Positions 1,661 to 32,548 of a stretch of DNA of 64,000 nt are shown one piece after another. The stretch's first letter is position 1. The number at the start of each line of letters is the position of its first letter. Both the position numbers and the translations under genes were made by a program. The stretch spans positions 62,001 to 126,000 of the forward strand of contig KE546976.1 in assembly GCA_000442125.1 (NCBI GenBank), given 5' to 3'. The notes below the pieces were generated by a model. It was not told where the DNA came from and did no database searches. It saw only the letters and a list, made by a program, of their open reading frames with translations. Source of the DNA: Opeltia flavorubescens (lineage: Eukaryota > Ascomycota > Lecanoromycetes > Teloschistales > Teloschistaceae).

Positions 1661-2942
1661 GTAGACAGCGATTCGAACTTTGATAGTGGCTGGCACGAAT
1701 CAGCGAGTGGAAGTTTTCCATTCTCGATGGGCGACTGACGAGAATTTGTTTGGATCAAGAGACTCATTGCGTCAAATGATAACCTGACTAGATGACAAAG
1801 CTCAAAGGACAGGGAAAGAGATCTACCGTACAGAGTGTACGCTAAAGATCAGAATGGCAGACGGCCGGCGTCTCTAATTCCTCAAGATGTCAAGAGATCT
1901 CGAATGTTCGAGACGTTGCGCAGTGAGAAGAATAGGGGGAAGACAAGATCTTCGGACGGAAATGAGGACAAGAACCTGAAAGAAATAGATTAAAGTATAC
2001 GGAATGAAAGCAGCTTTTCTGATCTCTGCTCACCGGCTCGATCTCCACCTGTACTTATATACTTATTGTGACTTCTCAGTGGCCATTCGATTTTGAATGC
2101 CGGAAAGAGCTCATCCTGGTATTCCAGACCCAGTTCACAGATCAAACACATCTTGTTTGACCAACCTGATACACATTGGAGTAAAAGAGACCAACATAGA
2201 TGTCGGCCAACATCGGCCATTCCCATAGGTCCGTCCAACATAGTTTGACGGATGTGCAGGGATGGGCTGCTTTGTATCGGAAGCCGCCGTCTAAAGTGGG
2301 ATCACCCAGGACCTTGGCCTTGATTGTGCATGGATGCAAGGTCGCTAACGCTGTCGTCGCCATCGCCATTGGTCGATGAGACAGGCAAAGTGTCATGCAA
2401 CCGGTGTTCATGGCGTGTCTGCTCAAAATAAAAATCGGGCGCGTCGAGTTGGGTCACTATTCGACGTTCTGGCTGCATAAACTCAAGCCGGCTGATCACT
2501 TACTCTGATGGGAAATGGTCTCCCGACGCTCCAGACGACTCTACCTGAGGGTGTGATTGAAGGTTTTCACGTTAGCGGTGAACTACCAATGAAACAGCTT
2601 GATATATCGGTATGGCACAGGAATGGGACGAGATCGATGGTGAGACGGAACAATCAGGCAACAGCGACAAATTCTTCAATTTAGTTGGTTGGGACGTTGT
2701 CCGCGCCGCTCGGCTAGTTTAGCGCCGCATAAGTCGAGCCGTAACCGCTATGCCAAGACCGCTGATACATGCCGATTGGCCGACAGCATTTTTGTGGCGT
2801 TCAGTGTGTGCACTGCGAGACAATCCCCTTTCAACACCAGATTCACAATCCTTCCTCGAGGTCAAGAAATTACAATTTAGAGCCTCTGAAGAAGTTATCA
2901 TTTACAGGAATAGATTATCACCTTCCTCCCTTACCCAGTATA
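1661..2942. other. Intergenic spacer between FIG1 and kinase-like gene
   Basis: The spacer holds the divergent upstream regions of the FIG1 gene (-) and the kinase-fold gene (+), and possibly a first FIG1 exon near 1700-1860. Open frames of up to about 95 codons at 1990-2500 overlap one another on the same strand and resemble nothing I know. No repeat was seen. Confidence 0.4.
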
Positions 2943-3927
2943 ATGGCCCACAGACCGCGCTTCATTGATGAGAGCCTGGACAATCGTCTCGTCAAGTTTC
3001 CTGATCAAACAACGTGGCAATTGACGAAGCAGCTTACCGAGAAGCCTTGGGAGGGCTCGCGTCCGGAAGAACGAGAAGGGAGCTATTGGTCACCGAGTGA
3101 GGTTCACGCCGTGTACGAATGCCTACAAACAGGCATAACCCACCCCCGCCGAGTCGCAATCATGAAAATTCGTATAGAGTAAGTTGTCACTGACCACCAT
3201 CATACTTGAATCAACTAAGTCGACTCAGGGTACCATATGAACTGCCTCCCAGTGATGATCCCAAAGAGCGTGCGAAAGAAGCGTCTGGAATGCGACTCAG
3301 CCTTGATACAAAATTCGAGATCCAAAATCTTGAGAGGCTTACAGCTGCTGGGTGTGCCTTCACACCAAAGCTCCTCGCTGTTCAGATAGATATCCAGGAT
3401 GAAACGGTGTTGCAATACCCGCAGGATAACAAATACCGCTACTATGGTCGGCCTGGTTCAAAGTTATGGATGCCTGGAGGTTACATCGTTTATATTCTCA
3501 TGGAGAAACTTCCAGCCGAACCCTTAGCCTATGACTTGTTTTGGGATGAGAAGGTCTTCACAAAGCACGACCGGGACCAAGTTCGACATGCTTTCAAAAA
3601 AGCCTACATGTAAGTCACCTTCTTTGATTCGTCGACCATGTGCTGACGAATGAACAGCGAGGTCAGAAAACTTGGGTTCTATCATGAAGACACTAAGATA
3701 CAGAACTTGATGTGGAACAAGGATGCAAAGAAGTGGTAAGTGTACCCAGACCCATGGGGCCCACGCCCATCAAAGCAACGACTTAATTCCCGGTTTTTTG
3801 TAGTTACATCATCGATTGGGAGATGGCCGCCTACGACCCTGCCACATGGGCCAAACCTCCAATTTGGTTTGAAGATGAGTACTATAGATGGCACCTTGCT
3901 CGTAGACGAGAAGAGCCCCATTGTTAA
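2943..3927 (+). CDS. Protein kinase-fold (aminoglycoside phosphotransferase/RIO-like) protein
   Basis: Four exons (2943-3178, 3229-3609, 3658-3735, 3804-3927) give 272 residues and close in frame with canonical GT-AG borders. The protein has a compact kinase fold. A candidate strand-3 lysine is K75 in VAIMKIR. A catalytic loop of the H-x-D-x4-N type is H215-E-D217-TKIQ-N222, and the metal-binding DFG equivalent is D236-W-E. Hydrophobic strand GYIVYILMEKLP marks the hinge. All key residues are kept, so phosphotransfer is plausible, but the substrate is unknown. The domain is short and N- and C-terminal extensions are minimal, unlike Ser/Thr kinases with APE and a full C-lobe. The next gene on the same strand, 642 bases on, encodes a PD-(D/E)XK-like protein. 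The start at 2943 is the first ATG giving a homogeneous reading frame; the upstream open frame looks non-coding. Confidence 0.75.
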
Positions 3928-4569
3928 GCGCTGGATGTCAGTGTCTAGTATCGGTTGTCTAAGGACATGAATCTTATCAAGCGTATTCGTGAAAACTGTC
4001 GTCTCATAAGCTGTGCTTTACTACTTTAAAATCAACTTTACATGGGTCGTGAACCAGATTTTGCATGAAGCTACGGTCTGTAAGTCGTTACAGGTATGGC
4101 TTGAGACTCCTGTAATCTGATGCCGGGCGATTAATGATTTCAGAACTTCTGTTGTAGTCTTGCTATTCTGGGCCAAGTAGTGAGTCATTCTTAGCAGGCA
4201 ATCCTCCGCTGCTCAGCAATCTCCGTGTCTCCCCGTGTCCCTAATTTACTGCATCACATGGTTTCCAGTGACTGACTAGCCGCGCGCGACCTGTAGGATA
4301 ATATGAAACATCATAGTCGAGTACGTTCGATCCTGGCGCTTATGTGTCCCAGAGGTTCCACTCCCGGTTCAATGGTCTGTCGATCACATCAGTTATATAA
4401 AAGCGGCCTGTATAACTTTCGAAGTTTCTGTTTGTATAGCCCATTAACCTCAGCAAGTCCGACAATCTCAATTTCATCTTTATTTACACACTCAAATCCA
4501 GACTCCGAGTCCTTTCTTTGTCATCTCGAATTCTGTTACCCGTCATCATAAGCTGCCCTTAGACGCCAA
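3928..4569 (+). promoter_or_regulatory. Spacer with TATA box for the PD-(D/E)XK-like gene
   Basis: A good TATA element (TATATAAAA, 4394-4402) lies about 170 bases before the ATG at 4570 and is followed by a pyrimidine-rich leader. This argues that the downstream gene has its own promoter and is not an extension of the kinase-like gene. The rest of the spacer shows no gene. Confidence 0.5.
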
Positions 4570-9072: not shown

Positions 9073-11235
9073 TTACAAGTAGACGATTTCCCTGATCCCT
9101 GAATCCTTCTGGGATGAATGGTAGTTTCCCGGGGCAATAACACCATTCCGGTCAATCATTTCCACAAGCAGGTGGCTATTGTCGCGGCAATGATATCCTC
9201 GGTCATAGCATCGTTGACACACGTCAAAATCCCCTCTTTCGCTGACATTGCAGTGGAAGAATGGTAAAGGTAGCGGGCGAATTAGACAATAGTCGCAATA
9301 TCCTACGCCAATCAAGCTCGTTGGCATCCTATCAAAAAAGTCTGTATTAGGATGCAGCACGTGCCTCGGATCAGGTGCTGTGTGAGACGGTGGAAACATC
9401 TCGAGTAAGATTCGTGCTGCCGGCCTATCGTTCGGTTCCCTGGCACGGCAAGCGCTGATGATCTCCCGGTAGTATAGCGGGATATCATCCGGTAGAGGCG
9501 GTAGATCGATAGCATCAGAATGCGACGCTTCTCTCCGTTCTAGACTATTACGCGTGTGAGAAGGGTTCTCTGCTAGAAGCCAGAGGACCGCCCCCATCTC
9601 AAAGATGTCTGCCTTTGACGTTACATCCGGGCAATCTGCCTCGCATGTATCAGGAGAGCCGAATTCAAGATGTTGAAATTCAGGAGGGTACCAGCCGCTG
9701 CCGGTGCGGCCCATCTCAAATTTGCTCGTGAACCATTGAAATTGAATATCTTTGGCGTCGATGATGACAGGAGACCTATAGACATACAGTAGCCCAGCAA
9801 CGAAGCCATTGTTGTGAAGTTGAGATACCCCTTCGACAAATTGCCTTGCCCAACTCTCGCGCTTAGCCCACGAAATTCCTTGCACTTGTGCCATCTGCTC
9901 AAGGCTTCGCGTAGCTTCAGCGCATTCAATGAGTACACTCTTGATTCGCTTATTCTCATAATTAACGACAACACCAGCCAATGGGGCAAAAGCTTCTTTC
10001 CCTTTCATACAATGTAGAACTCGGATGTTGTAAAGTATCTGGCGACTGGGAACAACGCTGGCACATACATGTTCGACGACTGCTCTACCATTAAGGCATG
10101 AAAGGAACAGGAACGGGGCTCTTCGAACTTCAACCTTTATGACTTCTCTCTCCATATATCTAGCACACCCAAGATCTTCAATGAAGCCCCACGCATCAGC
10201 AAAATTCTCGGAAAGCCCGGTTAACACGGATGGACGTTGTGGATTGTATCTTGAGTCACGGGTCTGGATGTCCCGTCCTGTTGATAAAGATACAGTAACA
10301 TGTGCGCCGTCAACAAGCTCTTCTGCCGCCATGAGAAGGTGCAGTCTAGACTGCAAAGTGTACGGCAGAGCAGCACTACCGGCCATGCTTCCATACTCTT
10401 CGGAGGAACGACCTTCTCGCGACGAAAGCTGCGCAGCAGTCCAATATACCGAAGAGCGATATATTTCAGCTGTGCTGCTAATTCTGCACCATTGTCTAGA
10501 TGAATTTATGAGGAAAAGCTCGTAACAATTTATCATGCAATCGTCAAGTATTTCTTTCTGGTATGAGCTAATGACGATCAGACGAGACATTGGCAGTCGA
10601 TCCATATTTGTATATGCTTCAGGAAAGAAGTTTGGCGAGAGCTCGAGCGGGCCAGCAGGATCCGGTTGATGTGTTTGCCCTGTGTTGTGGAACGTTGATC
10701 CACTTGAAAGTAAGTGATGTATATTGTTGATAGCTATGGATTGGGAATGGACAACCCGATTGTTTGTTGAGACTGCGTGTTGAATATCTACTAGTCGTCG
10801 GTTGTGAATCGAAGCTGTTACCGCGGACATGTTAAGCGAAGACATGTTGTTGGCACTTATTGCTACCAGCAGACTTAGTCGGTTTTCCTTGAGTGTATCC
10901 TGAAGTCCGAAAACGTTGGATCGGTTTCTTGCCCATGCCCTTCGACGAGCTCTAGCAGTTGAACCTTGCTCGCAAAGTACTTTAGATCTGATAACGTTGT
11001 GAAGCTGCCCAAGCGTTAGTGTCGCTCTATGCAGAGCTGCCGCAATCGCTGGAGGGACTGATTGCGTCTGTTCGTCTTTTATGTCTTTGACCAAGCTTGC
11101 GAAGTCCTCGACTTGTTCCTGCAGAGCCTTGAGCTCCTCAGACGCTCGATAGACCAATTTTACCCTTCTGATGGCCTCCTTGACGAGCGTTGCTAGGGTG
11201 AGAACACTCGCGAACGTCGCGACTACCTCAGCCAT
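9073..11235 (-). CDS. Helical (HeLo/STAND-N-like) - pseudokinase - ZZ finger protein
   Basis: A single 720-codon exon. Residues 1-160 form an amphipathic helical bundle starting MAEVVATFASVLTLATLVKE, typical of the fungal N-terminal domain of STAND/HeLo-like proteins (PF17111-like). Residues 400-612 follow a protein-kinase C-lobe plan: helix SWARQFVEGVSQLHNNG (461-477), a PPEF in place of APE (517-520), SKADIFEMGAVLWLL (540-554) and CRAREPNDRP (596-605). The catalytic loop is degenerate: where H-x-D should stand the protein reads GFVAGLLYVYRSPVIID (477-493), and no DFG is seen, so I read it as a pseudokinase. Residues 647-688 are a ZZ-type zinc finger with C647-x2-C650, C662, C673-x2-C676 and C683/H688. 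Helical domain plus pseudokinase is the layout of MLKL and plant MLKL-like cell-death executors. Death or incompatibility function is inference. Confidence 0.75.
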   Translation of the reverse strand: MAEVVATFASVLTLATLVKEAIRRVKLVYRASEELKALQEQVEDFASLVKDIKDEQTQSVPPAIAAALHRATLTLGQLHNVIRSKVLCEQGSTARARRRAWARNRSNVFGLQDTLKENRLSLLVAISANNMSSLNMSAVTASIHNRRLVDIQHAVSTNNRVVHSQSIAINNIHHLLSSGSTFHNTGQTHQPDPAGPLELSPNFFPEAYTNMDRLPMSRLIVISSYQKEILDDCMINCYELFLINSSRQWCRISSTAEIYRSSVYWTAAQLSSREGRSSEEYGSMAGSAALPYTLQSRLHLLMAAEELVDGAHVTVSLSTGRDIQTRDSRYNPQRPSVLTGLSENFADAWGFIEDLGCARYMEREVIKVEVRRAPFLFLSCLNGRAVVEHVCASVVPSRQILYNIRVLHCMKGKEAFAPLAGVVVNYENKRIKSVLIECAEATRSLEQMAQVQGISWAKRESWARQFVEGVSQLHNNGFVAGLLYVYRSPVIIDAKDIQFQWFTSKFEMGRTGSGWYPPEFQHLEFGSPDTCEADCPDVTSKADIFEMGAVLWLLAENPSHTRNSLERREASHSDAIDLPPLPDDIPLYYREIISACRAREPNDRPAARILLEMFPPSHTAPDPRHVLHPNTDFFDRMPTSLIGVGYCDYCLIRPLPLPFFHCNVSERGDFDVCQRCYDRGYHCRDNSHLLVEMIDRNGVIAPGNYHSSQKDSGIREIVYL

Positions 11236-16754: not shown

Positions 16755-18411
16755 ATGGCCGATCCAGGATCAATCCTTTCCATCATTGCAGGAGCGGCTA
16801 GCCTTGCCTCTCAAGGCGTCAAACTGATTCGGGATCTACATAACATATTGGAGCAATACAATTACGCCGATCTAACCATCACGTCAATAGAGACAAATTT
16901 GGAAACGGTGACTTGGGCTTGGTCAGAAATCCAAGTGACCTTGGAGAGCTGGTCAGGCAACTCACAGAGCGATCTCGGTTTTGATACAAATACTTTGAAT
17001 CATGTGAGTCGTGCTCTCAGAGGAGGTCGCCTTGTAATAGCGGCACTGCAAGATGACTTGGGAGCGTTCAAATCGACGTCATCTTCCTCTGCAAGCAACA
17101 TCATCATGAAGACTGGGTTTCGAAATAAGACCAAGATTGTTTGGAATGAGAAGCTGCTCAAGGATCACCAGGAAAGAATTAGAGATCAGGTCAACTCAAT
17201 GAATCTTCTCATAAATGTCTTGAACTTGTATATATCCCAGATGAGGGCAAAACGTGACTACTATTTAGCACTTGCTGATATGCTTTAAGATCAACAGCTT
17301 CCATTCGCAGAGTGACACTTAACAGGAGTCTTTGCGTGCTCCAGAGATCTGATGAAAGCGCGTTCTCAATCGTCCCAAGCAAACTCTCAACCGATGTCTC
17401 GGACCGTGATAGCCGCCTGAGCATCAGTAGCGAAGTCCCTATGGCCTATCATGAATTAAGCATCGATTCGGACTTATTCGCAGCCAGAGTTTACAAAAGG
17501 AACTACCGGACTGCTTTGATTCGGGACTTATTCCGCAAGGCTAAGCGAGAAGGCTCAGAAATGCAACAGCCGCCAAGTCAACCCATGTCGTCAATCCAGC
17601 AAATCAGCGCATCGGAACAGGTACTTAGTACCAATGCAGACTCGATTGAATCAGATATTGGTATACCGCACCCATGATAACCAACGTCTTGTTGTGTTGC
17701 TATTCTAATGAATATCCTGCAGGAGATATGCCCAAATTCTACCAATGCTATTTTTGCAGTAGCTCCATTGACGTGGAGGAGAGTTTGTACCTCGATAGTC
17801 AGGGATCACCGATATGCCGCGATTGCGCCAAAAGCTGTAGCGCATGTGGTGATAAGATCCAGGGCGGAACGGTATCAATCGAAGATCAAAATCTTTGTTC
17901 ATCATGCTACCGCTTTCGCTGTTGCGATTGCAAGAAGAATATTCACAACTCGGGATATACAAGAATGTCCCAGGGTTACTTCTGTATGGACTGTTACAAC
18001 CACTCGAAAGGCGATGAGGAGATGAAGGCTGTAAAGTTTGGGTTCGCTAGACTAGTCCCGCAGGAACGATCTCTATCAGAAAAATCCGCGGAACACTCTC
18101 TCCAGAGACAACGCTCGCGTAAATTAATGCTACCCAGCCTGAGTCCTCCTGCAATTGAGGAAATACCGGCAACACTAGGAAAAGCCCAACATCAGACCGG
18201 TCGGCCGGCACCTACAGCCTTTCATTACGACAACCCATCAAATCCTGTAAAAAGAGATACTGCGAGAGAAACTTTATCTCAATCCACACTCCAACCCCAC
18301 TACCTTTATTATACCACACCACGATACCAACTCGAAAGAAAATTTCAGCAGGCCCGACACGGATTTTCCCAGCGCATTTCCACCGCCAGGACCTTCACGG
18401 ATCCTAAATAG
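16755..18411 (+). CDS. Helical (HeLo/STAND-N-like) - LIM zinc-knuckle protein
   Basis: Three exons (16755-17227, 17311-17660, 17723-18411) give 503 residues and close in frame. Residues 1-160 start MADPGSILSIIAGAASLASQ and continue with amphipathic helices, as in the fungal N-terminal domain of STAND proteins (PF17111-like). The middle is polar and Ser-rich. Residues 283-367 carry regularly spaced CxxC pairs: C283-x2-C286, C306-x2-C309, C313-x2-C316, then CSSC, CCDC and CMDC, the pattern of LIM domains. The C-terminal third is basic and disordered. A GTATAT donor at 17228 and an acceptor at 17310 are needed to leave the first frame; the second junction uses GTATAC. No nucleotide-binding or kinase domain is present. 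It may be an adaptor or signalling partner for a helical-domain executor; this is inference from domain pairing. Confidence 0.7.
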
Positions 18412-20297: not shown

Positions 20298-21803
20298 TTG
20301 TGCGGAGCGAATTGATGGTTCACTGCTGGATGGATAAACGGAGGTGGACCATGCGAACTTTTAAACTCGCCTCGGGAAGCCATGTCGTCCATGCGAAGCG
20401 TCAGCCTCACTGAGAGCCCAAGACGACCAAACAACGAGTATGTTTCGCCATCTATTTCCGTGCTGAAGAAGCATGAAAGACGTGAGGTCAAAAGTAATCG
20501 GCTATTAATGCGGCAATCGCGTAAAGCTGTATGCGACCGAAACCGACACACAGGACTTTTTGGTATAGCCACCCATAGTACCAAAGCGGTCCAGAGACAA
20601 TTTCTTTGGACTCACCAAATAGTTTCTAATCACTTTCATTACAGAACCCGGTGCTAGAATACCATCTTTAAATATCACCATCCTAGGCTTTCTCCGAAGC
20701 AGCTGAGTATCACGGCTAGCATTATAGAATAGAAGAAGTGCCTTCTAGGATGTAACGAGCAAGCATTTCGAATAAAAATAGAGGAATTGGTCCTGAAGAT
20801 GTAGTTTATGTTTAGCTACATACTTAAAAGGATCAAAATATCATTTAAGCTCATGACTGGATGGTTTTCACAGAACAGCAATGATCTAACAACATCAAGC
20901 TAGTCCTACCCGGGCTTAGCAGGATGTGGGCTTATCCGAAAATACTGCAACAGTCTTGACTTGACGTCCTTTACGTTCTCATAGCCAATAAGACGTGAGA
21001 AAAGTAACATCAGAGTATTTGCAACTCGTACATCCCAACAAGTGCATATTTCAAGCCTGCTCACAGCACTCATCCTCAATTCCTAGCTGGGAGGCTTCCT
21101 CCACTCTGGCATCGACTTAAAGTATAAAGCCTGGAAACCCGACCAGACCGCTAGCACTTCAGATAACTCTATCACCCTTGTCGAGAAGTAAAGGATAGCA
21201 GTGCGCGACATAGGACGTGTTGCTATCATTTGCCTAGTCTTTTCTCATCAGCCTTATCTCCACTCCCTTCCCCAGCCATGAAGCACAGTGTTCCTGTCTA
21301 TGTTAAAAGTCTTGCTCGACTTACCGATAACATATTGACATGGGTCTTTGATTGAGGATTTTGAAATTTGGAATCCCATTATCATTGCGCCGAATTTTTC
21401 TACCACACAGGATTCGAAATCGAAATTGTCAGAGGAATATCATCATTTGAAAGTGGGGGAATCAACATTCAGTATATTTCGGAAGGTTTTATAGATTGCA
21501 GCGTGGATATCTAAGGTGTTATGCGTTTGATAGGTGAAGAATACCTGGGGTTTACATTACCGAACGGCTTCAAAAACGCTAGATCTAGTTCCGGGCGAGA
21601 AGAAAGTGATTCTAATGACTTATCAAGGAAGCGATCAGTAAGTATTCGTTCAAAATCTTATCTCAATGATCCGCATCAAAGTTAACCATACTCTCTTCCC
21701 TGCATTTGACCCCGAATACCCATTGCTCCACCAACAAGTAAGACACCCCTCTCACACTTCCATATATTGCAGACAGGATATTACTCAAAACCCCAAACTA
21801 ATA
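20298..21803. other. Gene-poor spacer
   Basis: About 1.5 kb separates the secreted Cys-rich gene from the first member of the tandem family. I see no supported gene. The sequence is AT-rich with no obvious terminal repeats. Confidence 0.4.
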
Positions 21804-22984
21804 CTAGTCGACATCCAGCGCTTCAAGCTCCCCGCACCCCAATATCATCAGCTTTGGTCGGAACTCCATAGGCCGCTCCTTTGTACGTGGGTAGCACGCT
21901 CTACGCCATTCAATAGCTGGTTCCTTCCCTTCTCGGTCCACATCAACAGCGCCATAATCAGGTTTTTCGGAAGCATCTTCCTTATTCTCCTCATCTTCCT
22001 CTTCCTCCCCCTCATCATCATCATCATCATCGTCATCAATCGAAATCCCCTCTTCATCAGTAGAGCTGCACTTATTATCAACCTTCGCCTCATACGCGTT
22101 CTTTCTCCTCTCAGCCACCTCCAAATCAACCTTCTCCAACCCCATCATCATTTCCGCCTCCTCATGAGGATCAAAAGGACGGAGTCTCAACTTATCGGCC
22201 AATCCTTGAAACATCCGGCGTTGCTCTTCGTCCGGCTCTGGCTTCAGCGCTTCGTGGATGGTAGCGCTGGCCATGTAAGGCACAATTTTGCACATAATTG
22301 AAGTCCGTAGGGAGATCTCCTTGACCGGGAGAATGAGATACGCTTCGGCAATGAAGTTGTAATCGGAAGATGGAGATCCATGGAATAATTTGATAGTCTT
22401 ATTCATGAGAAAGTACAGCCTCATGGGGGAGTATGTAGAAAAGGCCTGCTACCTGGTCAGCGAAGAGGTGTGTATCTCTGGAAGTATTTATTGGCAGAAA
22501 GATCTCTTCCAGTCGGAAGATTTCCTACCTGGATATCATTCTCGAACCCCGCTCCCCCATTCCATCTTACGAAATTGTGGTAAAAGTAATCGGTCTCCTT
22601 ATCATGCCTGGTCCACATTTCTCCCGCCAACATTCCGTTATACTGCGGTCCCGGGCTATCAAATTCAGGCGCGACAATCTCGTCAGGGCGAAGATGTGAA
22701 GAGGTCTTGCAGGCACCATCAAGACATCTGGATAGGCGGAGCCACCCTTCAATACGCTCCTCGAAAGACATATCGAAGAGATAATTGCCTATCATCTTTG
22801 TCATCTCCTCAGGCAGGTTGTGTAGAGCTGCTGATGAGGGAGCATGTCGGACGCAGCACTGGAGAGTAGTGATAGCTGGTTTAGTCTGAACGTAGGCTTC
22901 AAGACGAGCGCAAAGCTGTGGTAGAGAAACTCGTGCAGCGAATGCGATGGTAAGATCTCGAGACTGTACCAGATCATCCTCCAT
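21804..22984 (-). CDS. Tandem family member A
   Basis: Two exons (22984-22529, 22445-21804) give 365 residues; an upstream in-frame ATG (23056) would add 24. Exon 1 holds the family core: LTIAFAARVSLPQLCARLEA, a Cys/Arg-rich helix, then NLPEEMTKMIGNYLF, which resembles the first helix of an F-box (LPxE..xxI), and IEGWLRLSRCLDGAC. Exon 2 begins AFSTYSPMRLYFL and ends with the family terminus MEFRPKLMILGCGELEALD. This copy alone has an acidic insert with an eight-Asp run (encoded around 22012-22040) followed by a Glu-rich stretch. The family has no name I recognise; a substrate-adaptor role for the F-box-like helix is speculative. Three intact paralogues follow upstream on the same strand. Confidence 0.7.
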
Positions 22985-23805
22985 GAACACGGTCGCGGTC
23001 GTTAATTCGTGGGTTGGAGATTCGATGGACGGTGGTATGACAGAGGGCTGACGCAATGTAATGATGTAAGAATCTTGTGGGGACGAAGAAGAAGAGAGCG
23101 GTGGATTCTTTCACATGTATGTGTGCTAGGGTTGTCAGAAATATATTCCATGTTTCTTGTTGTTTTATGCTGATGAAGCTAGACTCTTGTTTGTCAAAAG
23201 ATATCTGTTGTTGGTAACATCAATATTGTCACAAATCAAAAATACCAACATAAAGCTGTAGTCGTACATCTTGGCAATCATCACATAATCAAATACTGTG
23301 GCTGCTTCGAACAGAAATCACACACAGAGGTTTAATCCCACGACCATGTGATTCAAAGTCACGCAATTGCGATGCTAGAGCAAGGTAGCTCAGTTATGGA
23401 GGCCATATCGTAAATCATGTAAGGAAGTCAATAGGAAATCCAATGCTCGAGATCGAGCTATTCAAGCATCCGAGTTGAGACGCAGCATGGGTGCCTTTCA
23501 CACTACAATCCAGGCTTCCTTCACAGAGTCAGGCATAGGACCATTCCCAGTACACGTGATTACAAAAGTCCAAGCTACCATGACGACTAGGACTGGCGTC
23601 ATGGTAAATCGCAAGTCGTCTCAAAAACGCAACGTCACGAATTCCAAATGAGAGCTCTAATACAAGGCAAGATTGCGCTGTATGACCGTATTTCGCATCT
23701 AGGAAAGCGCCAAGAAAATGAGTGGGAAAATCTTGTAATGCTTGTATTTCATCTTTCAACCTTTCAATCAGGCCAATAAGGGCGCTTTCACCGCGATGGA
23801 GGAGG
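22985..23805. other. Spacer between family members A and B
   Basis: It contains the upstream region of A and the probable 3' UTR of B. A 104-codon minus-strand frame at 23529-23843 overlaps the end of B in another frame and looks spurious. Nothing else was seen. Confidence 0.4.
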
Positions 23806-24949
23806 TTACTCAGGGACCATGTTTCTCGCTTGAAAATCTCCACACGTCAAAAACATTAGCTGAGGCTTGAATTCGACCGTTTCCGAAGTTTTAGGCAAGG
23901 CACGCCAGGATAGTGTCTGCTCCGATACGTTCCCGTGGTTGCTGGCGATAGATTGACTTGACTTCAAATCCTGCCTGCTTTCTATATTGGTTCCAATCCT
24001 CACATAGTCGTCTTCTTCCACATAATCGCCGTAGATACGGGAATCCTGGCTTTTGGATATAGGTGGCCGCGGGAATTTCCAATCGTCGTAGTCGGCAATT
24101 TGCTTAAGCTTCAGGATGGATGCGAATCTCTCGAAAGATTTGCATTGGTCGCCCGTTATTTCTTTGAAGAGTGAAATATTGAGAGCACCTTCGATGTAGA
24201 GAGGAGTGTGACCGTATCGCGTATAGCTCTCAATTGGTGTTCGAGCAAGCGAAAAAATCAAAAAGGCTTTGACGAGGGTAGCCCATCCCAGAAAACCGTC
24301 GGTGTAATGCTTTTTGAAAATGATGTATGGGCGAATGCCAGTATCATGAGCAAGAGTCTGTCCGGTTTGAAACTGTTAGCCAAGACTTTGAAAGTTTCAC
24401 AAAGGGTTCCGGATGTGATTGTGGTATCGTAGATCATAGGCAATTGAGGAAGTCTTGGTGTACGTACGTCGATAGTTTCCACGACGTTCGGATTCTGTTG
24501 GAGACGAGTCATCAGCTAGGATTTCACGAAGTTACCGGGACAATGTAGATGACGGCAGGAATTACAAATAATCATCGAAGTCTCAATAGCTCTTGTGTGT
24601 ATGTACGCACCAAACGATGGACCGCAGCCCAGTGTGGAGATGTGCGGTCTGTATTACACATCCTAGTCCATTCCTCCAACTTAGCTTGATGGAGCTTTGC
24701 AGATGTAGAAGTCCGAACCCAGTCTCGGATCTCAGCATCGTGATTCAAATCGTAGAGCTCCCTGGATATCATCGAAATGACCACTGGCGGTAAGCTTCTG
24801 ATGACTGGTGAATGTGCACCTTGGATGGCAAGTCGGAATGCAGTTGTACTCGTTTGGGTATTACAATAGGCTTGCAGGCCAGCACAAAGCTTCGGTAGGG
24901 GTACCCTCACGGCCCATGCTGTAGTGAGAACTTCAGGTTCGGGCAGCAT
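23806..24949 (-). CDS. Tandem family member B (divergent)
   Basis: Three exons (24949-24611, 24515-24468, 24357-23806) give 312 residues. Exon 1 has the core in weakened form: LTTAWAVRVPLPKLCAGLQA, SLPPVVISMISRELYDL, IRDWVRT. An extra 16-codon exon follows, and exon 3 starts TLAHDTGIRPYIIFKKHY, matching TTEQNHGIRPYVMVNHH of member C. The terminus VEFKPQLMFLTCGDFQA is conserved. The second Cys of the CLxxxC segment and the surrounding SHL are missing, and the LPEE motif has become LPPV, so this copy may be drifting, but its frame is intact. Function is unknown, as for the other members. Confidence 0.65.
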
Positions 24950-26269
24950 GACGGCGATGAAATATAATTTGAGAAAGAAAGGATCGGAAGTCTACGAAGT
25001 CAGGTGGTAATTTAAATATGATTGTGGCAGGCCAATCAAATGAAGCACACTGAGCCAATACGCGGGATCCCTGATACGCTAGGCTTCATCGGGAGCTTGG
25101 GCAATTGGCTTCACATATACCTCAGCCTATGTCTTAAGGCCGTCAGTGCTCTGGTCTACAAGAAATACATGCCAATACGGTGGCCGTAGACCAGCGACGA
25201 TGGCGTCCAAAATCACGGTAAGTCTCCCACGTTAGAATTGTGCTACCGGGATTGTAAGTTTGTATCCTATCCCTTGCTATGGCACTAAAAGTAGGGGCTA
25301 TCAGGACTATGTCGCCTTCGTCTCATTCTTGATCGCTATACAGGCTCATAGTCGATGATGTTACCGAATTATCAGATATATGTTTAAGACTACTAGAATG
25401 TCGATCTATCATAGAGGGTGTACGCCAAGCTTTTTGATGCAGGGGATGGGAAAATTAATCGTTTTAGATTTGAACCCTTTCTATACTTGTGGCCATTCTG
25501 GTAAGGGGATTTCCACCTCATATCTTTTGTGTTTCATGTCGATAGTAATGAGTCCAAATTGAAAAGAAAATACCGACAGTGGAATAGGAGACGCCTTCTT
25601 TTACGAGAAACTACCTTGTCTAAGAACCCTTATTCGAACGAGCATTTAGTGGAACACCTGTTTGAACTATCTGACTGCTAGCTGTTTTGAACTCAACCCC
25701 GACTGTTGTAGACTTAACAGGACAGGAAATGGTCGTATTGCAACCTACGGTCTAGGCTTCCTTTCGTCGTTGCAACAGTGGTAATGATTTCGACATCAAA
25801 TCTATCTTAGTAGCTGTCAAATGAAATTCTGCACTAAAAGGGGGTCCCACAGTGGGCTTGATTCAGTGCAGAATATAGGTTGATTTTGGCTATTGACAGT
25901 AGCACTAGCCAACGAATTGCAGACTGAAAATATACACTGCGATGCGGAAATCCATGTTATAGTCGTATATATAAGGGCGTGCGGCATTGCCGCACACGCC
26001 AAGACAAGGAGGCTGTATACGCACTAGTAGATATCGATCAGTTAGCGATAAGCCATCCTAACTGCTAAAGGAAAGAATCACTTTTACTACTACTAGATCT
26101 CTGCACTTACTATTAGAACCCTGGTCTAAATTTGACCTTGCGAACGGGAAAGAAGCATATTCGGTCCCGAAAAAATAACATCAAGTAAGAAAGCAAGTAG
26201 ATTCTCTTCTTTGTATATTATAAGACTCGCATCACTACATTCCACGTCCCTTAGGCTTTTGCCCACTCT
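24950..26269. other. Spacer between family members B and C
   Basis: About 1.3 kb with a degenerate repeat at 25795-25905 (partner of 16045-16140). No gene is supported; a 61-codon frame at 25817-26002 is contained in the repeat. Confidence 0.4.
25795..25905. repeat. Degenerate dispersed repeat, copy 2
   Basis: This is the partner of 16045-16140. Within this copy TGCACT at 25829 and AGTGCA at 25865 form a small inverted pair. Confidence 0.5.
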
Positions 26270-27314
26270 TTATGCATCATTCTCGTAGGGAAAATAGGTG
26301 CGCCATTTCTGCGGTTCAAGTTCTCCACACGCAAGGGCCATAAGCTGAGGTTTGAAATCATACGTCCGCCGTTTAGGCTTCGGTTTATGGTTAACCTGTT
26401 TGTGCCCTTCCTTAAGGTCACTGGATGGCATTTGCCTGTCAATAACTTCAAATTCAAGCTCCAAAGCTCTATCCTCCTCTGGGTCATATGGACGAAGCTT
26501 AAGCTTTGAGGCAGCCGCGCGCAAAGCTTGATGCTGATCGTCGGTTAATCCCTTGAACGACAGCGGATCGAGGACGCTGTTGACAGCGAAAGCAGCAGCG
26601 TTCTCACCAGGCGTTGACATCACGGGGGTTTCCGCGAGAGGGAGTATTAGATAGGCCTGGGGTTCGAATTCGCGATCATCGTCCATAAGCGAGTATTTGG
26701 GGCCTGACCGATGATGGTTCACCATAACATACGGGCGAATGCCATGGTTCTGTTCGGTAGTCTATCAGAAATGATTGTTAGCAAACGTTCAGATGGGCAT
26801 GCGAACCATGACGGGGAGAAGTTTCGGAGTCATTGCAGGCCGAATTATATCCTCGCCATCCTCTAATACGTACCAAGAATTGCTTCGCAACATCCGTATA
26901 TCCGTTCAATATCCTCAAGAACTCTTCCCAGCGCTTGAGACTACCCTGTCCAAGTATTTCTACAGGAAAGCCTTGTAGATTAGAAGGATAGTCCTGAGTA
27001 CGAACGGGTACGCCAGCAAGAATTTGACAGTCCCGATGGAGGGAACAAATATTGCACATACGATCTAAACACCAGGCGATGCGCACCCAGTATTCGATGA
27101 GTTCCTGATAGTATGCTTCGCGAATCTCGTCGGCGATCATCGAAATGATCTCTTCTGGTAAGCGACTCATAGCTGAGGAAGTTGAATGTCGGATGGAAAA
27201 GCGAAATGCTGTAATCCACGAGCTTGTATCAACCAGAGCTGTGAGTCGAGCGCAAAGCTGGGGCAGCGAAACTCTCGCCGCCCATGCAACGGTCAATTTC
27301 TGAGGCTGTAGCAT
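26270..27314 (-). CDS. Tandem family member C
   Basis: Two exons (27314-26874, 26761-26270) give 310 residues. Core: LTVAWAARVSLPQLCARLTA, an FRFSIRHS segment, RLPEEIISMIADEIRE (F-box-like first helix) and IEYWVRIAWCLDRMCNICSL. The end of exon 1 (KRWEEFLRILNGYTDVAKQF) is shared with member D. Exon 2: GIRPYVMVNHH, then a segment with ILPLAETP and a helix LRAAASKLKLRPYDPEEDRA, ending YDFKPQLMALACGELEPQKW. The start at 27314 is chosen because member B starts at the same place; an upstream in-frame ATG at 27377 adds 21 residues. No signal peptide, membrane span or catalytic motif is visible. Confidence 0.7.
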
Positions 27315-28009
27315 AGTGGTGACTGTGATTGTGTATAGGTTTAAGGCTGTTCTGGTAAGAGTTGAAACCAAGCTCAATTTTTATTTCATGTCATCTTTAT
27401 AATAATGGTCATCGCACGGACGCAAAAGCTGCTCTTTGTATTGCTGCACAACGGATGAATAAAGAAGCATAGGTATCCTTATAAGAGTAACAACGAAATT
27501 GTTATTAGCATAAGTTGTACCCTTCTTTGTTCACTCAAAGAAACTTTTCCAGACCGGTCGCGTGTCACTAAGGCTCGAGGTATTAATTTCTTCTCACGGT
27601 AAAGTCTATACCTGATCGACTACAAGAACGGCGTCATCTCGTGCCATGTTAGCTTCTGTCTGAAGGGACACAAAATTCCCATGTTAGAAAGACGGCCAGC
27701 TTGGATCAGCTTCGATCGAGAAGGGGGCCTGATCTCAAGTACCCTTTAATGGTCTCTTGCAAGAACAAGCAATACGTAGAACTTGACATGATTGTAGATA
27801 TCATAAATAAGATCCTTGCCGATACACATGGCAAATACTCGGTCCATACAACGGTCTTACTATTACACATCATTAAAAATCCTGAAAATGCTGGAACAAA
27901 CCTTAAAACATAGATAAATTCTACCTTCTTCAACCTAATCCCAATCCCGAACCCAAAAAAAACAAATACCTCGTCCTTATTCTGCCTCCATACGATTTCA
28001 ACGTCCAAA
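27315..28009. other. Spacer between family members C and D
   Basis: This stretch holds the upstream region of C and 3' flank of D. No supported gene or repeat was seen. Confidence 0.4.
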
Positions 28010-29059
28010 TTAGGCGCAACCGTGGGTTTTCCAGAAATGCGCCTGCAATCCGCCAAAGGCAGCCACATCTTCCACGCCTAAGACCCCAAATTCAGGCTGG
28101 AATTTCCAGTTTTTTCCATCTCTGTGTGGTAATGACAGCACGAGCGGTTTGATTTTGGATGTGTCTTCTGGCCCGTTCGTATCCGGAACGTAATCAAGCT
28201 CTCTATCTGACATCGTGCCAGTACCTCGCTCATTACTATCCTCAACGTTCCCGGAAATACGCGTTCCAAAGACCTTGTCGATATCCAGGTCATGGTTATA
28301 TATCTGGTCGCTCAATTGCTCTTCCTCGTGCTCATCATAAGGATGAAGTTTCAGCATAGTAGCCGCAGCATGAAACTCTTGAATCCGAGCATCTGAAGGA
28401 TGTTGCCCACTTGAAGGAGCCCAACTTAATCGTTGTTCGAAGGGATCATAAATAATAATATAAGCGTACGTATCTTTGAAGCCTCCAGGTCCGTCGTGCG
28501 GAGGCTCTTCGATACAGAATAGTGGGATAATGGGCGAATACTTGGAGAAGCACTGTCAAAGTTAGCCAGAATTGCTCACGAAAAGCACCAGTAGAGAACA
28601 TACCTGAACGCGTTTCGCAAAGGCTGAGTCACCTTCCAGATTCATCAAACTCTCACGGAAATCCTCCACGTCCTTCGCATGTCTCTCCCGCGCTATCAGG
28701 GCCATCTTCGACTCATAGGCCTCGGTAAAGTTATCGTAGCCCGGGGGACAGAGTTCAGCATAGGAAAGATGCGACACGCTACCACATTCCTCCCTGAGGC
28801 ATATTTCAAGCCGAACCCATTTTTCGATCTCATCCTCGAAGGCCATTTGACGGACCTGGTCCCCGATCATAGATACAAGCTCCTCCGGTACCTTGTTTAA
28901 AATAGATTCTGGAGGTACATGTCGGAAAATAGCTCGAAAGGCGGTGATACCAGGCTGAGTCTCAACATGGGCCACTAGTCGGGCGCAAAGCTGCGGTAGA
29001 GAAACTTGTGCATGATAAGTAACAGGAATATAGTGGTATGAGCTCCAATGTCTTACCAT
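28010..29059 (-). CDS. Tandem family member D
   Basis: Two exons (29059-28604, 28552-28010) give 332 residues. Core: VSLPQLCARLVAHVETQPG, ITAFRAIFRHVPP, KVPEELVSMIGDQVRQM and IEKWVRLEICLREECGSVSHL. The exon 1 end (DVEDFRESLMNLEGDSAFAKRVQ) matches member C. Exon 2 begins CFSKYSPIIPLF, equivalent to AFSTYSPMRLYF of member A, and has YAYIIIYDPFEQRL and MLKLHPYDEHEEEQL. The shared C-terminal motif is partly preserved (WKFQPEFGVLGVED), then the protein runs on for about 15 more residues. The initiator shown is the only ATG before the core. Function is unknown. Confidence 0.7.
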
Positions 29060-31439
29060 GATCTCGACTCTTGAGGTTCTTATAGTGATCGTGTTGGTCA
29101 GTAGAGTATGATTTTGCTGTCGAAAGTGTATTTGATTGTGAAAGGAAAGGAGATGGAATCAGAAGTTGCCAGACGTATATAGGCCTCTAAAAAATGTCTT
29201 TGTTCTGTACAAAGGATTGCATCTGTGTCGATCAACCATCAGCACGCCTCTTTTGATATTCTGCCTCATGGGCCAACAATTTCCTAGAAGTGACAAGACT
29301 TTTGAGTATCTACTATCATCATGAGAAGATGAACATTGTGTTTCACGCCAAGAGTCGTTGTTGACTAGGATAACGTAATTCGAACTTGAGGCCTCCGGAC
29401 GTCTGCCCGCATGAAGATGAACTCTTTGTTCTCCCTTTGACCAATAATGCAGATATGGGAGGCTTTTGTTTGAACGAGGAACGCCAGAGATGGGGATTAT
29501 CGTTTGGAGCAGTTGATTCAAGACCGTATAACTGAATATGCCATAAGTCCAGACAGTGGATAATAAGCCGATCATCGAGGGAGAGACACCTTCTTGCACT
29601 AGAAATCAGCACCATCTATATGAATTCCTTGTTAGACAGGTGTGTTACCATTAATTTGACACAGATACAGGAGGCTCAGCTTGCTTCACGTCCACTTCCG
29701 AAGGTATCCTCTCTCTTGTTGCTGTAATGGTCGGTTTTTCACTAATGATCAAATCAAACGGACGAGAAAAGGCTACATCGCGTTTTCCGGTTTGGGTTTT
29801 CTCTTACATTACGTCAGCCATTTATCTTACCTTAGACCGAGTGCAAACGCTTGTCCAGCAGCACCACCTGATATCAGTTAAGAGAAACATACAAGCGATC
29901 CTGTCGATCACAGGCACCAAATATCTCATCAGGAGCGTTAGTACAGGCGGGAATATATAAATACGCACGATATAGCTGACTCCGTCATAGATTTGTACCG
30001 TGCGCTCTATTTCTGATGGACTGAACGACGTTTTAAGACAAATGCTCACGTGTTGTAAGGAGATGCATTGATAACTCGTCACATCGACAGTGTGGAATCA
30101 TATCCAGACCATCCTGGCATTCTCGAAATGGTCTATGACAGACGACAATGGGTGCGAAGTCCTGGATCTGTCGTCCGTTTGATAAGGTGATGCTATTCGA
30201 GATAGACTTCAGAGTGATTTTATTGTGAGATGCTGGCAATACATTCATTCTCCAGGATTACTTGGTTATACATGATCGACCCTGAATCCGGGAATAGAGA
30301 TATAAAATCAGCCTTGGCATATCCCTGTCCCAAATTTTAGTGTCATGCAGGGAGGTATTTGCACTGCGCTTGATGAGACTGAGTGGCGGATGCTGGCGGT
30401 CGACGAAACGGGGGCCGCGCTTCTTGAACCCTACCGCGCTTGAGCTAAACGAGCGATTATCATGGCTCGTCAAGTGAAACTTTGAGCCGGTTATGATCAG
30501 CTAGCTTGAAACTCCTCAGTCGCTTTACTGCCCAATAACGTTTATTCAACCATCCACGCCATGTTAAAAATGGTTTGCAACGTGAGGGACAACGGCAGCC
30601 GCTAAACTGCCCGCCTAGACTGCCTGTCAGGGGGTGCCTTAGCTATACTCGGGGCTAGGTTTAGCGGCTACCGTAGGCCCTCACGTTGCGAACCATTTTT
30701 AATATGACGTGCCATCTACGCCCTTATATCTTTAACCCATCTGCTTTTTATACTTTGGTGCGATTGCTTTACAAGACTTTTGATACAAATACAATTTTAC
30801 CGCTTGCAATGATTTCGCAAGGCGGCGGACTTTTTCCAGGGTGGAGTTTAATATATTCTGATAAGGCAATTCATTTTCACGATAAAACTCAAAGCTGTAC
30901 TTGTTCTAATTTGGAATTTGCCTCATTGTATTACTGCTTACTGCATGGGGATCTGCTGTATACATCACGATCATAGTCCACGAAGAGTTACCCCAAAAAA
31001 TTAATAATCATTTGATATAAGACTATAGATTCTCGATAAATATGCTTTAATCTCATCCAGCGCCTAGAATTGCTACATGTACTTCCTTCCATTCTTCAAC
31101 AAGTAATATTTTGGTAGCAGTGAGCCAAACTCCAGTACTCACACAAAAGGAAAATACAAAATCCCAATCTCCCTCCATTTACACTATGGAGATGGGGGTA
31201 TTGGAGGGAAAAGGAGGGGTGGATGGGAAGGGTGGGCGAAAATGCTCTGCGGAGATAGGTGGTATTAGTAGGAGATGTCAATGGTCGTATAAAAGATACG
31301 AAGGACGAATATTGAGGTTTGGATGGCCGATCAAGTCATACCTGGTTGCTGGCTCATTTGGAAAACCTTACCAGGATATACACCCTTGATTCATAAAGTC
31401 TCCAACTTCCAGTACCTCCAACCAATCCGCCCACTGCTA
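29060..31439. other. Gene-poor spacer with MITE
   Basis: About 2.4 kb separates member D from the decayed member E. It contains the MITE at 30555-30712. Open frames of up to 146 codons (29159-29599) resemble neither the tandem family nor anything else I know. A possible remnant of the second exon of member E lies near 31180-31240. Confidence 0.45.
30555..30712. mobile_element. 158-bp MITE with terminal inverted repeats and 5-bp target duplication
   Basis: The ends are CACGCCATGTTAAAAATGG on the left and the reverse complement of CACGTCATATTAAAAATGG on the right. Pairing continues inward through GCAACGTGAGGG and AGCCGCTAAAC, so about 60 bases of each arm match. CCATC flanks both sides (30550-30554 and 30713-30717), consistent with a 5-bp target-site duplication. 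There is no coding capacity. The transposase superfamily cannot be assigned from this alone. Confidence 0.8.
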
Positions 31440-31818
31440 TAGCTACAACAATTCTCGGACATTTTGGAAAGAGGTGGTGTCTTTGAGGAATCTAGTATAG
31501 TCATCGACATCGTTCATCGCGTCAAATTGATCTCCTGGATGCGGCCGCGCGTGCCAATTTTTCGGGAAAAAAGTTGTCTCGATATTTGATATCTTTTATC
31601 TACGGCTCGATACCGTGCTGGTAGAAATCATGTTCTGCGGGCTTTGGAGGCGATCATCGCTATGAGGGGTTGTCAAGAGTTGATGATGGAGGTGTATGGT
31701 TGATTACGCAGCGGGATGTTGTGGTGGTCGATTTGGTCAAGTTATGAGCTACTAGACGAGCGCAAAGTTGAGGGAATGAGACTTTCATGGTGAACGCGAT
31801 GGTGAAGTCTTGTGGCAT
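31440..31818 (-). pseudogene. Tandem family member E (decayed)
   Basis: Starting at the ATG at 31818, the frame reads MPQDFTIAFTMKVSFPQLCA and continues ARLVAH, clearly the family core. It then runs through VINHTPPSSTLDN to an in-frame stop where intact copies have LPEEI. Shifting frame restores the AMIAS segment (equivalent of SMIAD), and further on DDYTRFLKDTTSFQNVREL matches the exon 1 end of members C and D. So the copy has at least one stop and frame change, and most of exon 2 is not recognisable. It is the most upstream member of the array. Confidence 0.7.
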
Positions 31819-32548
31819 TGTGATGGTTGATTGGGTTCTCCTGGTGGGGGAGAGAGAGAAGAGTCATCATTTTCCAAGGCACAACCTCTGATTCTCGGCA
31901 GTGGAGATCCAGAAGCAAATATATACAATCCGTTCGAAAGAAAACAAACAACGACAAAGGCAAAGAGATTTTATACATAGTTTAACAGAAACCACATAAG
32001 GATCTCGAAAGATGTCGAGAAAAAAAGGAGGGGCAAATTCCATATCAAGGACGGTGTTAGTTTAACAGCCTGGCTGAGGGAATGGCTAAGTAAATCATCC
32101 AAAGATTGAATATCAACACACAGAGGGAATACACTTACTCAGTGGCATCATCCATCAGTAGGGACCGCATTGAATAGCTACTACTGCAATAAATAGAGTT
32201 TCATGGACCGAACAAAAAGTAAAAAAGGGCGCAAAAAGTAGGGTTGTTTAGTGTTTGAAACACGTTCAATCCAAATTTCAATCCCCGTGATACTGATGAA
32301 AATTAACTATGATTGAGGAGGAGTGTAAGCATCATTTCTACACTTATAGCGATGCACCACTATTTACCTCCCCCCCCACCCCCCNNNNNNNNNNNNNNNN
32401 NNNNNNNNNNNNNNNNNNNNNNNNNNNNNNNNNNCCCCCCCTATCATCCCACAACTCAAGTAATAAGATCATTACGCCCAATCCACCGATCCCCCCTCAT
32501 CCATCTTCGCCCCATTTGGAAATCTAGCCAAGAGACACTTTCATATCT
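31819..32548. other. Spacer containing assembly gap
   Basis: It holds the 50-base run of N at 32385-32434, flanked on both sides by poly-C (about 32370-32384 and 32435-32440). The gap probably marks a homopolymer the assembly could not cross. No gene was seen. Confidence 0.5.
32385..32434. other. Assembly gap (50 N)
   Basis: Fifty consecutive N, flanked by poly-C on both sides. The fixed round length suggests a placeholder, not a measured distance. Confidence 0.95.

Follow-up and report, generated by a model that had tools for sequence, protein, structure and literature searches.

The helical bundles of MLKL and HET-S attack membranes once they are activated, as outlined in the sections of two publications that deal with these proteins (PMC12881547; PMC10197012). 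Some HELL domains sit in proteins that also contain a kinase or a pseudokinase, which is described as reminiscent of MLKL in a passage of the first of these, a 2025 review (PMC12881547), and the family PF17111 is named HeLo-like in the part of a further paper that mentions it (PMC9815663). Here, we describe a gene within a 64,000-nucleotide stretch of DNA from the ascomycete Opeltia flavorubescens (“the window”, C12:62001-126000 of a 34.4-Mb, 23-contig genome), which combines a HeLo-like four-helix bundle, a pseudokinase and a degenerate ZZ-type zinc finger in one protein. An earlier, sequence-only reading had proposed an MLKL-like layout for this protein, and the order of bundle and dead kinase is confirmed by sequence comparison and fold prediction. 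The window protein probably arose by a separate event in fungi, in which a HeLo-like domain was joined to a fungal kinase family that we take to belong to the TKL-like group, and is probably not an orthologue of MLKL.

Architecture of the window protein and its relatives

The gene is real and looks intact: it is a single uninterrupted open reading frame (ORF) at 9073-11235 (-), in agreement with the position and strand reported before, and has the anatomy listed in Table 1. Relatives were sought in the source genome itself, in viral contigs, and in bacterial and archaeal genomes. Within the source genome, the window protein matched ten places including its own, two of which hold substantial relatives. 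The first is a paralogue on contig C1 (785 aa as spliced, in a three-intron gene model that we built by consensus splicing), which has the same domain order and aligns with its residues 1-782 to residues 1-717 of the window protein (blastp E 2.9e-54, 25% identity). The second, an 844-aa ORF on contig C8, matches the kinase part alone (window residues 355-615, E 1.1e-23) and encodes a kinase without HeLo or ZZ domain.

The N-terminal part is predicted to fold into four helices (residues 2-28, 32-55, 62-91, and 94 onward), the first of which is hydrophobic, with a predicted local distance difference test score (pLDDT) of 77; the best structural matches include the coiled coil of potato Rx, the executioner domain of MLKL, and NRG1.1. 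Comparison by hhalign with nine PF17111 domains of the same genome (six of them over the Pfam cut-off) gave 96.9% (E 1.4e-10), and with a 13-member PF17111 profile (eight members over the cut-off) the N-terminus outscored all 2000 shuffles. The PF17111 match of the window protein in Pfam remained under the cut-off (13.8 vs. 27.2 bits, E 0.037). The bundle is therefore classed as HeLo-like by homology and not as a Pfam-called member of the family. The C1 protein had no PF17111 match at E up to 10, and a PDB sequence search with the N-terminus returned no match to MLKL. The helical N-terminus that had been read from the letters is thus backed by both PF17111-type homology and a predicted four-helix bundle, rather than some other fold; the homology to PF17111 holds, while the direct Pfam match does not.

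A kinase-shaped C-lobe without catalytic motifs had likewise been recognized from the sequence. This claim can be extended: because homology to the C8 kinase begins at residue 355, the N-lobe is present too, and the kinase-like domain comprises residues 355-617 as a whole. All four catalytic positions that were checked are lost, i.e., the catalytic Lys is replaced by Glu388, the alpha-C Glu by Asn403, and the HRD Asp by Leu482, and the DFG position lacks an Asp. The check relied on an alignment guided by four kinases of the genome, of which one was represented by a piece without N-lobe; in this alternative alignment, neither a catalytic loop nor a DFG emerged. The same four positions are lost in the C1 paralogue, whereas the C8 kinase keeps the Lys, the alpha-C Glu, the Asp (in a QGD motif), and the Asn, with DIN replacing DFG. 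Other landmarks that had been pointed out are indeed retained in the window protein, namely an APE-like PPE (517-519), the Asp543 and Gly548 of a DxxxFG-like element, and the anchoring Arg604. Between the DFG place and PPE, the window, C1 and C8 proteins alike have a short segment (about 12-17 residues). In Pfam, the Pkinase matches of the window protein (E 0.0077) and the C1 protein (E 0.049) are both below the cut-off, and that of the C8 protein (E 6.7e-14) is far above it; the single NCBIfam match of the window protein, to a defence-system kinase model (E 0.1), is taken as a generic kinase match. Single-sequence structure prediction for residues 196-639 gave a model of low confidence (pLDDT 32) that was kept out of every fold search, so that the kinase fold rests on sequence. 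At this level, kinase homology together with the loss of catalytic residues places the domain among the pseudokinases.

The C-terminal finger had been read as a ZZ finger. A finger is present, but with a ligand loss that had gone unreported: seven of eight zinc ligands are kept (C647, C650, C662, C673, C676, C683, and H688), and Ser665 stands where the fingers of C1 and of two other loci, L006 (NBR1-like by eye) and L007, have a zinc-ligand Cys. The window finger is recognizable in an alignment with these three ZZ-type modules. It remained under the Pfam cut-off (ZZ_ADA2, E 0.91), and PF00569 (cut-off 21.4 bits), the profile for which the sequence-only reading had suggested a search, was unmatched in both the protein scan and the genome search. 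For the C1 finger, the genome search exceeds the PF00569 cut-off (22.9 bits), but the protein scan stays short of it (17.5 bits, E 0.0036). Because one of its eight ligands is replaced, the window finger is regarded as degenerate ZZ-type and not as a full member of the family. An in-frame intron candidate (consensus, 114 bases at residue 671) was rejected, because its excision would remove ZZ residues that are common to C1. The L007 module itself belongs to a fungal NLR-like gene (L007:1-3075 (-)) with NPHP3_N, winged helix and ankyrin repeats, in which the ZZ-like stretch is flanked by the P-loop domain on one side and the winged helix on the other; its Pfam match to ZZ_ADA2 reaches only E 4.8.

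Table 1. The window gene and its parts, with positions counted in the window.
Feature	Residues	Positions	Strand	Basis or remark
Whole gene		9073..11235	-	Intronless ORF, 720 aa + stop; end-to-end match to C1 paralogue
HeLo-like (PF17111/PigL_N-type) four-helix bundle	1-131	10843..11235	-	Sequence and predicted fold
Last-helix continuation (to residue 173) and linker	132-194	10654..10842	-	Prediction, block pLDDT 55-74
Middle region	195-354	10174..10653	-	Common to C1 paralogue, no known domain
Pseudokinase	355-617	9385..10173	-	Homology and residue alignment
Degenerate ZZ-type zinc finger	647-688	9172..9297	-	Ligand alignment

Origin of the fusion

In PDB searches, MLKL was the top match of the window kinase, both with the single sequence (E 6.4e-8, residues 433-620) and with a three-member profile (1.6e-11), in which GCN2, RIPK1, TTK and IRAK4 followed closely. 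On its own, the C8 kinase matches GCN2 best, and its 12 matches at 1e-5 do not include MLKL; closeness to MLKL is therefore not a trait of the whole kinase family. Orthology to MLKL was weighed and not adopted; the other kinases come close behind MLKL, and the nearest relatives found are in the same genome. Reverse searches with the middle and kinase parts of the C1 and C8 proteins ranked the window, C1 and C8 genes first for both queries, with a total of three places for the C1 query and nine for the C8 query, the remainder of the latter being more distant kinases. For the middle region, hhalign against C8 gave 0.6%, and C8 was not among the listed matches of a window and C1 profile, all of which were shuffles; the sole alignment that reaches the middle region in C8 is a blastp match of C1 residues 261-664 to C8 residues 221-575. 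Outside the source genome, three stretches of the scanned viral contigs and 94 of the scanned bacterial and archaeal genomes fit the search pattern, none of which was confirmed as a relative. With two dead copies that carry the bundle and a catalytically intact one that does not, the trio in this genome makes the order of fusion and catalysis loss testable by comparative genomics.

A possible switch and its rivals

By analogy with MLKL and HET-S, the reading that we favor, although we put it somewhat short of probable, is that the protein works as an MLKL-style switch, and a role in cell death is plausible on the same grounds. In the resting protein, the long helix that follows the bundle would, together with the pseudokinase, keep the four-helix bundle inactive; the stretch between bundle and middle region (residues 132-194) looks brace-like, judged by its position alone. 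The pseudokinase, which is not expected to phosphorylate, and the finger would serve as docking surfaces for an upstream protein, whose binding, or phosphorylation in trans, might free or oligomerize the bundle. The hydrophobic first helix of the freed bundle could then target the membrane, leading to local cell death or damage signaling. Among the elements of this model, the domain order, the HeLo-like bundle, and the loss of the four checked catalytic positions in both HeLo-fused copies are established as far as alignment and fold prediction carry. Should the bundle indeed kill under the control of the dead kinase, fungi would provide independent and genetically easy examples of a pseudokinase restraining a membrane-active bundle.

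An executor or sensor of cell death, as proposed in the sequence-only reading, would be a role assigned by analogy. HeLo-like domains are abundant in the genome, with 29 places listed at E up to 0.1, of which 10 exceed the Pfam cut-off, and this favors a signaling scaffold that does not kill. Here, the bundle would oligomerize or recruit, while the pseudokinase and ZZ finger assemble a stress or developmental complex, and we consider this nearly as likely as the switch. It also draws on a HeLo-like domain on contig C23 (PigL_N, E 3e-8) that is followed by an ORF that looks ankyrin-like by eye, a putative fusion, and on SltB, a fungal pseudokinase protein that acts in cation tolerance according to the sections of a paper in which scaffold and competitor roles of pseudokinases are discussed (PMC4557415). 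However, a membrane role would fit at least equally well with a first helix that is hydrophobic and with the structural match to the MLKL, Rx and NRG1 bundles. An improbable alternative is that the C1 copy does the work and the window gene is a decaying duplicate en route to a pseudogene, from which introns have disappeared along with a zinc ligand and catalytic residues: its ORF lacks the three introns modeled in C1, and Ser665 replaces a Cys that is found in C1, L006 and L007. Yet a stop-free ORF of 720 codons that can be aligned to C1 over its full length at 25% identity is hard to explain without selection, and the catalytic residues are gone from C1 as well, so that their loss is not special to the window copy. 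The replacement of all four checked positions, in two copies, also makes it most unlikely that we are dealing with an atypical kinase that remains active by means of unusual residues, even though some so-called pseudokinases, e.g., WNK, transfer phosphate, as stated in the relevant part of the same paper (PMC4557415).

Gene neighborhood and comparison with known systems

Among the 126 of 205 candidates that were scored, no partner kinase gene was found near the window gene. MLKL responds to a RIPK3-type kinase that acts upstream on its activation loop; in the window protein, the corresponding segment is short. A second HeLo-like gene is located 5.5 kb away, at 16755-18408 (+) of the window (exon joins provisional). 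Its N-terminus scored 18.4 bits with the HeLo-like profile (best of 2000 shuffles, 12.8) and 89.5% in hhalign, had no Pfam match at E 0.1, and is followed downstream by a LIM-type finger below the cut-off (E 0.00095). Further along, at about 21800-31850 (-), the window contains about five diverged copies of one gene family, arranged in tandem and seen as two kinds of ORF.

Elsewhere in the genome, HeLo (PF14479) and DUF7580 (PF24476) occur in one open frame, both over the cut-off, at C16:1095073, C22:275023 and C8:230748, the last with a HeLo match of merely 25.5 bits; at C3:2045572, a strong HeLo is accompanied by DUF7580 below the cut-off. When scanned, the C16 and C22 proteins matched HeLo, DUF7580 and, below the cut-off, Pkinase, and by eye HKS replaces HRD in their translations. 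There is a tendency for DUF7580 places to have a kinase gene nearby: of the 14, six do so within 10 kb (uniform-placement P 8.6e-5), four within 6 kb (P 0.0013) and two within 3 kb (P 0.026), in a post hoc count that includes two DUF7580 places under the cut-off, covers 105 of 145 kinase rows, and ignores gene clustering. On C22, an ankyrin-repeat kinase gene (L055:220-2547 (-)) is divergent from the HeLo+DUF7580 gene (L079:3-1622 (+)), and the two are possibly a RIPK/MLKL-like gene pair. They are arranged like ffkA and pskA of Aspergillus nidulans: pskA, which encodes a pseudokinase, and ffkA are transcribed divergently from each other according to the section concerned (PMC4557415), and FfkA is listed with ankyrin repeats where PMC3591445 names it. 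This likeness concerns gene arrangement and not a HeLo or DUF7580 content of PskA; the word HeLo is absent from PMC3591445. At L077:421-3546 (+), DUF7580 is combined with a protease-like stretch, which by eye recalls A. nidulans SltB, and a kinase gene with a C-terminal zinc-binding-like stretch (L078:2-1177 (-)) adjoins a DUF7580-type kinase-like gene (2398-3999 (+)), whose DUF7580 and Pkinase matches are both just under the cut-off.

One could imagine that fungi built the MLKL layout repeatedly, in this instance by joining a HeLo-like killer bundle to a TKL-like kinase, with catalysis lost in both fused copies, the residues kept in the unfused relative, and the ZZ finger added as a sensor; we consider this scenario rather doubtful. 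If it were true, then, together with the kinase genes beside HeLo+DUF7580 genes, kinase-controlled necroptosis-like death would be a repeated invention in filamentous fungi.

In MLKL as in the window protein, a TKL-like kinase that is catalytically dead comes after a four-helix bundle at the N-terminus. Unlike MLKL, the window protein has an additional middle region (195-354), a ZZ finger, and a short activation segment, and C8, a fungal relative of its kinase in which the catalytic residues are intact, does not point to MLKL. The likeness to the plant Rx and NRG1.1 coiled coils is at the level of fold only, and plant MLKLs share the idea of a bundle plus a kinase, going by their description in the review section on them (PMC12881547). 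HELLP-type cell-death effectors and the HeLo-like N-termini of fungal NLRs have the same type of bundle; the sources consulted describe HeLo-like (PF17111) proteins with an amyloid motif or as part of an NLR, whereas the window bundle precedes a pseudokinase and a ZZ finger. In the HeLo+DUF7580 proteins, too, a HeLo-type bundle precedes a dead kinase-like domain, but with a different HeLo subtype (PF14479, not PF17111) and another pseudokinase family, and a scan of those of C16 and C22 at E up to 0.1 gave no match to ZZ. The window protein, in turn, has no PF14479 or PF24476 match at E up to 10, and its gene is not among the genome places that match these families. Given the mention in the 2025 review (PMC12881547) and the HeLo+DUF7580 frames in this genome, a fungal MLKL-like layout is a known kind. 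A PF17111-type bundle with pseudokinase and ZZ finger was not found among the literature matches listed under ZZ-finger names, other finger names being untried. The combination of a PF17111-type bundle with the pseudokinase family of the window protein and a ZZ finger thus seems to be a new variant of this known fungal layout.
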